Origin: Bacteroidota bacterium
GTDB lineage: Bacteria; Bacteroidota; Bacteroidia; CAIKAF01
Length of the DNA stretch: 64,000 bases
Assembly (NCBI GenBank): GCA_016866335.1
Contig: VGMT01000003.1
Span: forward strand, 62,001 to 126,000
Reading direction: 5' to 3'
Below the pieces are notes generated by a model. The model had not been told where the DNA came from, did no database searches, and saw only the letters and a program-made list of their open reading frames with translations. The first letter of the stretch is position 1; every line of letters starts with the position of its first letter. Positions 28,934 to 61,033 of the stretch are shown one piece after another. A program made the position numbers and the translations under genes.

Positions 28934-29048
28934 CGGCTTTGTAACAGCAGGCACAAGGAAAAAGTTCAACAAAAGCCCAAAGAATTGTTAAGTATTCTTT
29001 GTTAATAGATTTAAACCATTGAATATAAGCGGTTTGTGTTTTTTTTCA

Positions 29049-29197
29049 GGGCGGCGAACGGGCTTTCAGGCTTAGTCCGCGGTTGCCGAAAGGCTGGCCC
29101 AGCTGGTTTGCGGGGGCTCCTAAAGTCGCCTCCGCACCTAGCGGGCCAGGCTTCGGCAGCCTTGCGGGCTAAGCACTTCAATCCCTGCCGCAGCCGC
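29049..29197 (-). repeat. GC-rich structured intergenic repeat, copy B
   Basis: Full copy on the minus strand, starting 22 bp past the stop of the gene ending at 29220. The second stem is GCTTAG / CTAAGC, fully paired yet different from the GGTAG / CTACC of copies C, D and F. The long central arm pairs TGCCGAA near its base and GCGG-GGC under the apical loop GACTTTAGGA. Nearly identical in the arm to copy E. Confidence 0.88.
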
Positions 29198-32763: not shown

Positions 32764-32912
32764 GCGCCCGCGGGCGGGATTGAACACGGTAGCACGCACA
32801 GGTGCTGGGCTCTGCCCCGCGAGGCGCGGAGGCGACTTTAGGAGCCACCGCAAGCCCGCTGGGGCAGTGCCCAGCAACGGCGGACTACCGGAGAAAGCCC
32901 GATACCCGCCCC
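32764..32912 (+). repeat. GC-rich structured intergenic repeat, copy C
   Basis: Full copy on the plus strand between convergent genes, 44 bp past one stop and 9 bp before the other. Second stem CGGTAG / CTACCG is perfectly paired. The apical arm is GCGG-A-GGC / GCC-A-CCGC closing loop GACTTTAGGA. The left end reads GCGGGATTGA, one change from the consensus. Confidence 0.88.
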
Positions 32913-32921
32913 CAAAACCAC

Positions 32922-35868: not shown

Positions 35869-36398
35869 GCTGTTGAAGTGCTGGTTCAGGGCTTAAAAGT
35901 AGGAATAATTGAGGCATGGATAGAGGGGGAAGCAATGGAATTTAGAGCCATTGGAAGCCTTCGGTCTATGTTGCAGATATGCTCAAAATTAAAATGCTGT
36001 GTTGAATTTGTTTGCAATGGGTTAGCCTCCAAATTTGGTGCGGTATAGGGTTTCTGTAATGCGGACAATAGGGTTCAGCGTTTTAAGCTACTGCGGAATA
36101 ACTCCCTAGCCAAAGTTAGTCGCCTTGATTTTTTGGTTTTCCTTGGATAGATTTAATAAACAACAATTTTGGTTTTTAGGGAGAAATGGGCAATAAACAG
36201 GTTGAAATTTATATGCAATTGCCATGTTTACATTGCCGTTAGTATACAATCTTCGCAAACTGCCAAATTAACGGCGTAAATCCCGAAAAATGGCTCAATA
36301 AAGTTCTAGCGCGCCGGCCTTGAATTTTTGACCTTTAGCTGGGCTAGTTTAATCGGCAATTCCAAGCTCTTTTGAATTTGGATGGCCTAAACCCCCGA
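35869..36398. other. Intergenic stretch without a supported gene
   Basis: 530 bp between the start of the DUF1566 gene and repeat copy D. Both strands hold only short overlapping frames without homology. Composition is AT-richer than the genes. No terminator or exact promoter box was found; a TACTTTTA lies upstream of the DUF1566 gene on the minus strand. Confidence 0.5.
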
Positions 36399-36546
36399 GC
36401 CGCCCGCGGCAGGGATTGAACAAGGTAGCACGCAGCGGTGGCGGGGCCTGGCCCGCGTGGCGCGGAGGCGACTTTAGGAGCCACCGCAAGCCCGCTGGGC
36501 CAGCCCCCGGCAACGGCGGACTACCTGTGAAAGCCCGCAGCCGCCC
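36399..36546 (+). repeat. GC-rich structured intergenic repeat, copy D
   Basis: Full copy on the plus strand, ending 25 bp from the stop of the M12B protease gene. Base stem GCGGC (36406-36410) with GCCGC at the right end; second stem AGGTAG (36423-36428) with CTACCT (36521-36526); apical stem GCGG-A-GGC / GCC-A-CCGC around loop GACTTTAGGA (36470-36479). The only copy whose consensus orientation is opposite to its nearest upstream gene. Confidence 0.88.
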
Positions 36547-36571
36547 AAAAGAAATAAACTGAAAAATGAAA

Positions 36572-38746
36572 TTATGGAACGATTACCCAGCGGAAGCTAC
36601 GAAGGATTCCGGCCGTCTCAATTTGAACCACATACAAGCCCGGCTTGGGGTCTTGAATGCGAATGCTGTTGCCTTCAAGGTTGGCGGCAACTTGCCTGCC
36701 GTCGCTGAAAAACACCCTGAATTTTTCCGGATTTAAGGCTGTGGCTAAAATGGTGCCGAGCCCCATCGAAGAAGGGTTGGGAAGAATTTCAAGGTTTTGT
36801 TTCCAGCTGCTTAAACCAGACGAAGGTGTGTTGTTGATGACAAAATCGGCGTTTGAAATGTCGTAAAAGATGTTGCCAACGCTTTCAACCATAACCCGCG
36901 CCTGGGTAATGAGCGTGGGTTCGTTCGGGAAAAACGGCAATATCAGGGTTTCTTGTCCGTCGTTGGCGGTAGCCGAAACCAGCGTGTAGGGGTAGGTGTA
37001 GCCACCGTCGGTTGACAGCAACAGGTTTACTTGACTGCAGTTCACCGGAGTTTGGTTCGTGTTTGCTACGTCCCAGCTTATGCTAACCAAAGAATCGGTT
37101 GACCATTGAATTTGGTTCGTGTTGGGGTTGCTTACCAAAAAGGGCCCTGCAAGAGCCGTGGCGTCGTAATCAACCTGGTGGTAACTCACTCCGCCACCGT
37201 TGGGCTGGTTGTCGCGTACGGTTACCCTGAAATCCATGGCTCGGGTATAGGTGGGTAGCTTTTCAAGGGCCGAGCTGGCGTTGCTTACCACAAAGCTAAG
37301 GCGGGGAAACCACCGGGTAGGGCTGTTGGTGGGCGGCAAGGAAACGAAAAGAGGAGGGGTGCCGGTGGTGGGGGTGTTGGCCAAGGCAATAGAAGCGCCC
37401 CGGTTGTATTGTTCCCAGCAATAGGTCAGGGTGTCGCCGTCGGCGTCGGTGCCAGCGGCGGTGAGTTTAAAGGGCGTTCCAATGGGGAAGAACGTTTGGG
37501 GAGTTGGTTGCCCGTTTACGGTAGGCGGGGTGTTGCCTGTTGGGGAGTTCGCGGAGCAGCCTCCGCCGGTTCCTTGCAAAAAAGTAAGCATGGTTTGGTA
37601 GCTGCGAACATGGAAATAGTCGTCGGAGTTGTTGCTGACGTTGTCGGCTTCGCAAATTCCAGCGTAGGCCATAATGGTGCTTCCGCTTCCCGGCTCGTAG
37701 GCGTTTTGACTTGAACGGTTTCCGCTGCAGGATCCAAGTCCCGAATTGAAGGTGTGGCTACCGTTAAACTGATGCCCAATTTCATGGGCCACATAATCAA
37801 CGTAAAAGGGGTCTCCAATGGGGTTGTTCAGCCCCGTTACTCCTTGAGCCTTAGAATTGGTGCATACCGAGGCCAGCGAGGCAATTCCACCACCGCCTGT
37901 ACTAAAAACATGGCCTATGTCGTAGTTGGCTGAACCAATAACTGCGTTGATGTTTGACTGGTTTTCACTTAGCATGGTAAACCCATCGTTGTTGGTGTAG
38001 GGGTCGCTAACCGAACTGGTGTAAATCAACAAATCGGTATTTGGTATTAGCACCATGCGCACCGCCAATTCTCGTTCATAAATTCCATTGACCCGATTCA
38101 TAGCGGTAACCATGGCCGCTAAGGCTCCGGTGGAACCGCCGTGGTAGTTGGTGTATTCGGCCGTAGCGGCTAAGGCTAGGCGATAGGTGCGCAAGGTTCC
38201 TCCGTTTGGATTTGTAGAAAAAGGGTCGAAAGGAGGGTCGTTAACGATGGCTTCTTTGTCGTCAAGGCCGCATTGAAAGGAATGGGGGTTTGGTAAATCA
38301 GCCTTAAAGTAGGCAAGGTGCCATTTGGCGTTGTTTGGACTAAGGGGGTCAATGTACCAATCGCCATTCGGGCTTAGCACTTGAACGTGGAATCCTTGTT
38401 GGGTTTGGTCGGCCCTTACAACCGCACTGGCATCTCCTTCAATTCGTCCAAACCAGGTTGAAATTTGAAGTTCAGCTTGTTTTCGGGCATCAGAAAGAAC
38501 GGCGTAGGGGGTTAATTGAGCCCAAACCCAGGAGCCGGAAGGGTGGGGTAGGGCAATGCGTACGGATGCAGCCTGCGTAAATTCATTGGACAGTCTTGTG
38601 TGCTCAAGGAAGGTGGCATTGAGGGGCTGAAAAAGGCTTGCTTGCCTATGTTCTTTGGGGACATCGAGTTTGGAAGCCGATTGGAAGGGGGATTGGGCTG
38701 AAACGGCTAGAGCAGTGCAAAAGGCAATGAAGACGATGTTTTTCAT
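36572..38746 (-). CDS. Secreted reprolysin-like (M12B) metalloprotease with T9SS sorting domain
   Basis: 724 residues. Signal peptide (first ~17), a propeptide region, and a zinc metalloprotease domain with VAHEIGHQFNGSHTF (HExxHxxxxxH-type) and a downstream Met-turn STIMAYAGIC. An Ig-like region follows and the last ~75 residues (LEILPNPSS ... GLYVVQIETAG ... RWVIVP) are a type A T9SS C-terminal sorting domain, so it is exported and anchored or released by type IX secretion. Its ATG overlaps the TGA of ribE, an odd coupling of unrelated functions. Confidence 0.93.
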   Translation of the reverse strand: MKNIVFIAFCTALAVSAQSPFQSASKLDVPKEHRQASLFQPLNATFLEHTRLSNEFTQAASVRIALPHPSGSWVWAQLTPYAVLSDARKQAELQISTWFGRIEGDASAVVRADQTQQGFHVQVLSPNGDWYIDPLSPNNAKWHLAYFKADLPNPHSFQCGLDDKEAIVNDPPFDPFSTNPNGGTLRTYRLALAATAEYTNYHGGSTGALAAMVTAMNRVNGIYERELAVRMVLIPNTDLLIYTSSVSDPYTNNDGFTMLSENQSNINAVIGSANYDIGHVFSTGGGGIASLASVCTNSKAQGVTGLNNPIGDPFYVDYVAHEIGHQFNGSHTFNSGLGSCSGNRSSQNAYEPGSGSTIMAYAGICEADNVSNNSDDYFHVRSYQTMLTFLQGTGGGCSANSPTGNTPPTVNGQPTPQTFFPIGTPFKLTAAGTDADGDTLTYCWEQYNRGASIALANTPTTGTPPLFVSLPPTNSPTRWFPRLSFVVSNASSALEKLPTYTRAMDFRVTVRDNQPNGGGVSYHQVDYDATALAGPFLVSNPNTNQIQWSTDSLVSISWDVANTNQTPVNCSQVNLLLSTDGGYTYPYTLVSATANDGQETLILPFFPNEPTLITQARVMVESVGNIFYDISNADFVINNTPSSGLSSWKQNLEILPNPSSMGLGTILATALNPEKFRVFFSDGRQVAANLEGNSIRIQDPKPGLYVVQIETAGILRSFRWVIVP

Positions 38747-48171: not shown

Positions 48172-48251
48172 GGGGGGCGTGCCGGCCTGCTGCCGGCACC
48201 GGGCTTTCCGCTTCAATGCCCTGCGGGCATTTCCACTGCAATCCCTCGCCC
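48172..48251 (-). repeat. Shortened form of the GC-rich structured repeat, copy G
   Basis: On the minus strand it begins GCGAGGGATTG and contains GAAAGCCCGG, the two end motifs of the full repeat, but the ~90 bp central arm is replaced by a small perfect hairpin ATGCCCGCAGGGCAT. It lies between convergent genes, 45 bp past the receptor stop and 32 bp before the UpxY-like stop. It shows the ends can exist without the arm. Confidence 0.65.
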
Positions 48252-48283
48252 AATCCTCGTGAATTAAATCGGGGGAATTTCGA

Positions 48284-58977: not shown

Positions 58978-59127
58978 GCCGCCCGCGGCAGGGATTGATG
59001 GGGCTACCCCGCAAGGGTGCCGAAGCCTGGCCCGCTAGGTGCGGAGGCGACTTTAGGAGCCACCGCAAACCAGCTGGGCCAGCCTTTCGGCAACCGCGGA
59101 GTTGCCCAGAAAGCCCGGCTGCCGCCC
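58978..59127 (+). repeat. GC-rich structured intergenic repeat, copy E
   Basis: Full copy on the plus strand between convergent genes, 84 bp past the deiodinase-like stop. Second stem GGCTAC / GTTGCC has five of six pairs with different bases from other copies. The long arm pairs TGCCGAAGCCTGGCCC with its counterpart and carries loop GACTTTAGGA. It occupies most of the 311 bp gap. Confidence 0.88.
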
Positions 59128-59204
59128 AAAATCAAAAACCAATACATCCGCTTTTTAAGGGCCTACCAAAGGAGCGCCCCGGCACCATTCGCTGGAATCG
59201 ATGC

Positions 59205-60794: not shown

Positions 60795-60886
60795 GGCTTA
60801 AAGGTAAAAAATTGCCCTCAGCAGCCCTAAAATTGTCGGTTAACAAATTGGGAATGCGGAGGTGTTTTGGATTGCTGGATTTTTAG

Positions 60887-61033
60887 GGGCGGCAGCCGGG
60901 CTTTCGGCGGTAGTCCGCGGTCCTAAGCCGGGGGCCCAGCGGCTTTGCGGGGGCTCCTGAAGTCGCCTCCGCAGCTCGCGGGCCCTAGGCTAAGGCCCTT
61001 TCGTGCTACCTGCCTCAATCCCTGCCGCGGGCC
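60887..61033 (-). repeat. GC-rich structured intergenic repeat, copy F
   Basis: Full copy on the minus strand, starting 18 bp past the stop of the carboxylase gene. Second stem GGTAG / CTACC. Apical loop GACTTCAGGA, one base from other copies. Central arm differs from the other copies on both sides (GGGCCTTAGCC with GGCTTAGGACC-type partner) yet still pairs. Confidence 0.88.

Follow-up and report, generated by a model that had tools for sequence, protein, structure and literature searches.

The ten bases GACTTTAGGA at 36470-36479 (+) of the window, by which we mean the whole 64,000-nucleotide stretch analyzed here, lie at the tip of a hairpin repeat of ∼145 nt that is present in about 170 copies in the 2.45-Mb genome. 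Judged by sequence comparison, the window copies are a long-armed, previously unrecognized relative of Flavo-1 that Rfam misses. Our leading explanation, for which we consider the chances evenly balanced, is a REP-like dispersed hairpin related to Flavo-1 that acts on DNA and would be read by a protein.

The ten bases belong to a capped apical hairpin

The window contains six long copies, at 275-430 (−), which is the most divergent, and at 29041-29196 (−), 32765-32919 (+), 36401-36554 (+), 58980-59135 (+), and 60879-61033 (−). All were found with covariance model R1, which detects at least 150 copies in the genome. Their loops are as an earlier note on this DNA had listed them: GACTTTAGGA at 29118 (−), 32834 (+), 36470 (+), and 59049 (+), GACTTCAGGA at 60955 (−), and GACCTTGGGA at 351 (−). 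We read 168 distinct copies from about 0.7 Mb of genome stretches and aligned 148. The same note had called the loop invariant, which does not hold genome-wide: the ten bases are exact in 72 of the 148 aligned copies, with GACCTTGGGA in 30, GACTTCAGGA in 19, and other sequences in 27. By itself, the 10-mer occurs in the window at chance level (44 matches with up to 2 mismatches versus 48.7 expected); the 21-mer around it has 165 matches in the genome with up to 3 mismatches, and its reversed control has 0. An element also lies at a contig break of the assembly (contig ends C6, 1-91, and the start of C9), which indicates that the repeats fragment the assembly and that the copy numbers given here are minimum values.

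Six of the ten bases are paired. Because the fixed irregularities of the helix include an apical tandem G·A, the ten-base "loop" reads GA-C-NNNN-G-GA: a tandem G·A (36470-36471 with 36478-36479), a C-G pair (C36472 with G36477), and an unpaired loop of four bases only, the tetraloop TTTA at 36473-36476. What had been described as an apical loop is thus a tetraloop on a short paired cap, closing an apical hairpin at 36463-36486 (+) (CGGAGGC-GACTTTAGGA-GCCACCG). The apical tandem G·A/A·G (GA/GA) is kept in 147 of 148 copies. Among the tetraloops, TTTA (72 copies), CTTG (32), TTCA (19), GTTA (12), and CTTA (8) are the most frequent; tetraloops typical of RNA are nearly absent (GNRA, 2 of 148; UNCG, 0 of 148). 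The first and fourth bases (columns 84 and 87) covary, with TA in 92 copies, CG in 32, GA in 15, and CA in 8, which is the strongest covariation among the loop columns. The joint change from TTTA to CTTG, first noticed in the window, is therefore real across the genome.

Across the 148 copies, conservation averages 1.66 bits per column in the ten-base loop, 1.69 in the apical stem (columns 75-80 and 91-96), 1.93 to 1.95 in the base, and 0.65 in the middle arms. The arms had been said to vary freely, which is correct only for their middle parts. The earlier note had also proposed that a loop as variable as its stem would speak against a conserved site; the loop is clearly more constant than the middle arms, but it is as variable as the apical stem. 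Recognition of the apex, suggested there as a protein or RNA contact, is plausible in view of the nearly constant tandem G·A and the paired substitutions in the tetraloop, but a second tandem G·A motif and a fixed C·A mismatch, both in the base, are about as conserved, and the loop thus shares the role of candidate contact site with other parts of the helix.

The repeat is one long covarying helix

The structure of the 148 aligned distinct copies is one long interrupted helix of 51 pairs, 43 of which show compensatory double changes. Paired cells make up 95.9% of this structure, versus 78.7% in shuffled and 35 to 49% in slid controls, and the covariation score is 0.415, versus 0.110 and 0.03 to 0.06, respectively. 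Within the helix, G·U combinations outnumber A·C combinations by 108 to 34, and therefore it is the strand as written that folds, as RNA or as single-stranded DNA.

In the element at 36401-36554 (+), as bounded by the model (R1, 156.3 bits; R2, described below, E of 6.7e-7), the core hairpin spans 36406-36545. Its 5′ base, GCGGCAGGGATTGA (36406-36419), pairs with its 3′ base, GAAAGCCCGCAGCCGCC (36529-36545), in a basal A·G / U-A / U-A / tandem G·A motif, and an A-rich flank follows (64 to 73% A at +3 to +7). The basal tandem G·A and the A·G are each present in 146 of 148 copies. Other fixed irregularities are the C·A mismatch (136 of 148), a bulged U (142 of 148), and an AA bulge (139 of 148). 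At three loci of this genome (L002, L004, and L017, on contigs C1, C2, and C13), we observed another subfamily, which has CCC/GGG in place of the basal GGG/CCC and keeps the G·A motif as it is.

Relationship to Flavo-1

Rfam returned no match in the window at the gathering threshold: the gathering score of RF01705 (Flavo-1), 42 bits, was not reached, and positions 36300-36600 gave no Rfam match even up to an E value of 10. Likewise, there were no Flavo-1 matches in this genome or in G001 and G003. The genus relatives G001, G003, and G004 carry the same type of repeat in at least 148 copies each (at least 150 in G001), G002 and G005 carry a divergent type in at least 110 copies, and other genera have short forms of ∼90 nt with the same base. 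Covariance model R2 was built from eight short forms of other genera and includes no sequence of this genus. It recovers all six window copies (E of 1e-10 to 6e-5) and matches 99 of 247 Bacteroidia genomes, ∼40% of the sample. It also marks a probable seventh copy in the window, at 48182-48256 (−) (GGGATTGCAGTGG...GAAGCGGAAAGCCC; E of 0.0019, 20.3 bits). This element is short-armed and Flavo-1-like, whereas the long form predominates in the genome, and both size classes thus coexist.

Among 25 loci with R2- or R1-related elements, 14 match RF01705 over its full length and on the same strand, with E values of 8.6e-6 to 0.03 that fall just under the Flavo-1 cutoff. In the reverse direction, R2 detects 16 of 20 loci of accepted (above-cutoff) Flavo-1. 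The Flavo-1 model matches 99 of the 247 Bacteroidia genomes, with at least 18 copies in several, and has 0 matches in 14 control genomes. Both models flag the same genomes (79 in common of 119; odds ratio [OR], 25), so that R2 and genome co-occurrence provide statistical continuity with accepted Flavo-1 members. The basal helix of Flavo-1, with its GAU[U/A]G / GgAaAGC motif, is present in the window copies (R2 alignments) and in the related short forms (Rfam alignments); its 5′ motif is common to the Flavo-1 consensus GAUuGaAGcG...uAgCGgAaAGC, and the basal motif is kept across the class Bacteroidia. Flavo-1 is a widely scattered, many-copy hairpin element of Bacteroidia. As the window copies stay below the curated threshold, we name them relatives of Flavo-1 and not members by the Rfam rule.

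Placement, orientation, and inheritance

The copies are extragenic (151 between genes and 6 inside long open reading frames) and favor convergent junctions (51 of 96, versus 81 of 482 other junctions; OR, 5.6). No orientation bias was found relative to codirectional genes (33 versus 39) or, by GC skew, relative to the replication strand (52 versus 45). Of 16 close pairs, 15 are head to head, an arrangement also seen in other species. The median distance to a stop codon is 95 nt on the 5′ side of the element and 17 nt on its 3′ side; the larger 5′ distance could hide a promoter. In most copies, the 5′ flank (−36 to −10) is AT-rich in two blocks and shows weak TTTG peaks at −33, −28/−27, and −12; these features may be a promoter, a terminator, or a target remnant. 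Flanks of different copies are similar upstream in 170 pairs, versus 5 downstream; a large share of the upstream similarity is the head-to-head partner, and part of it resembles promoters of divergent genes. An intrinsic terminator was rejected as an identity for the repeat, as no U-run follows the hairpin on either strand and the flanks are A-rich on the 3′ side and T-rich on the 5′ side.

All eight distinct junctions comparable with G001 carry the element, and the copy at 32765-32919 has a counterpart at its orthologous site in G001; at one junction in G003, the element is absent. The copy at 29041-29196 and its G001 counterpart (L183, 9636-9791) share the base and have wholly different apical domains, and at L117 the copy of the relative likewise has the shared site-specific base and an unrelated apical domain. 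Such combinations point to exchange between copies. The flanks show no excess of shared 5- to 8-mers, and thus no target-site duplication of the kind that would assign the repeat to a MITE of a DDE transposase.

Candidate explanations

The earlier note proposed the loop as the target of a RAYT-type transposase, which would make the repeat a REP/BIME spread by a Y1 HUH enzyme. High-copy extragenic palindromes in inverted pairs would fit this proposal, as would the higher frequency of Y1 genes in element-bearing genomes (OR, 3.6, a raw value that ignores kinship and genome size) and the report that RAYT subclass 2.6 of Bacteroidetes is flanked by "atypical" structures (PMC6006769). However, our search for a RAYT/TnpA_REP gene found no Y1_Tnp in this genome, nor in G001, G009, G013, or G014; G001 has at least 150 copies. 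In relatives, 60 of 64 Y1 loci are without the element and the other 4 carry one, always on one side; the Y1 genes that we read are mostly adjoined by other short palindromes. The GTAG/GTGG tag is absent, positions 26-29 being variable (G88/C52 and A98/T46), and 145 nt is long for such an element. We regard RAYT-driven spread as most improbable. The Bacteroidia Y1 genes at L203, L204, L280, L283, and L293 have their own flanking short palindromes, for example GCTCCGTAGGAGCGGCATC and GAGCGAGACGCTCGCGC. A neutral relic, the arms of which are kept paired by quasi-palindrome templated repair and not by selection, is also very unlikely. Close species can indeed differ at a given site by several simultaneous pair changes (G001 L193 versus L107), as such repair would predict, but mismatches and bulges would not survive templated correction, and the tandem G·A, C·A, U bulge, and AA bulge are kept in 136 to 147 of 148 copies, with a basal motif that is class-wide. 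The G·U/A·C polarity of 108:34 also argues against a relic.

An RNA-level role is the more serious alternative. The written strand would be transcribed, from its own promoter or by read-through, and the hairpin would bind an RNA-binding protein or protect 3′ ends. CUUG is a good, stable RNA tetraloop, and tandem G·A is common in RNA. The covariation, the placement near gene 3′ ends, and the AT-rich upstream blocks with their TTTG peaks are consistent with this role, and the excess of G·U over A·C fits RNA at least as well as DNA; Flavo-1 itself was catalogued as an RNA motif by Weinberg et al. in 2010 (PMC2864571). Against it stand the unbiased codirectional orientation, the missing terminator-like U-run, and the scarcity of GNRA and UNCG loops. 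In addition, published transcriptome sequencing of Flavobacterium psychrophilum, which is equivocal on transcription of Flavo-1, found its matches in sense or antisense and many untranscribed (PMC9723704). We judge the RNA-level role a real possibility, though not a probable one.

Action at the DNA level, with a protein partner that we infer, is the explanation that we somewhat favor. The element would work as a folded DNA single strand or an extruded hairpin, like REP/BIME, and a protein that binds it, spreads it, or tolerates it would make contact with its fixed non-Watson-Crick features (basal tandem G·A, C·A, bulges, and capped apex). The sequence of the arms would matter only for staying paired. 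Spread would be rare, most copies would be inherited in place, and apical domains would be swapped between copies by recombination. Orientation-blind placement supports such a role, and the head-to-head pairs give a REP-like layout. In the tetraloop, the first and fourth bases pair as they do in DNA type II loops (PMC5661647), with T-A, C-G, and G·A combinations; that article attributes a G·A pair in a GTTA DNA hairpin to van Dongen 1997. Counting against the DNA-level explanation are the nil direct Rfam score of the window copies and the fact that neither a mobilizing gene nor a target-site duplication was found. The lack of GC-skew bias also counts against it, because an IS200/REP-type single-strand element might show such bias, and so does the larger distance to genes on the 5′ side, behind which a promoter could lie. 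The evidence for DNA over RNA is not decisive, because CUUG is also stable as an RNA loop. Strong covariation by itself is no proof of RNA. A broader proposal, which we put forward tentatively and consider rather unlikely as a whole, is that Flavo-1 and its long-armed relatives are not RNAs but form a class-wide family of DNA elements that fold and do not depend on RAYT, that their protein partner differs from known REP transposases, and that their apex is a DNA type II tetraloop on tandem G·A.

Comparison with known elements

Like REP, BIME, and REPIN sequences, the window repeat is extragenic, high copy, and imperfectly palindromic, and it occurs in inverted pairs. It differs from the REP/RAYT system in being several times longer (145 nt versus a 20- to 65-nt hairpin), in lacking the GTAG/GTGG tag and a cognate Y1 gene, and in its complex internal motifs. 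Like the window repeat, BOX elements of Streptococcus pneumoniae consist of a variable middle enclosed by conserved, mutually paired base modules, but they are unrelated in sequence and phylum.

The closest likeness is to Flavo-1, an orphan motif since 2010 that is here placed in a high-copy, orientation-blind, paired, and covarying hairpin family. The family occurs in about 40% of the sampled Bacteroidia, with an expanded form invisible to Rfam, and the question shifts from what an RNA regulates to whether the element acts at the RNA or the DNA level and by what it is recognized. The window copies and Flavo-1 have in common the basal helix and, in the same strand orientation, its motif GAU[U/A]GaAGc...GCGgAaAGC, as well as a distribution in Bacteroidia and many copies per genome; the window copies are distinguished by an extra GC-rich arm with a tandem-G·A/tetraloop cap, at about 145 nt versus the 76 positions of the Flavo-1 model.
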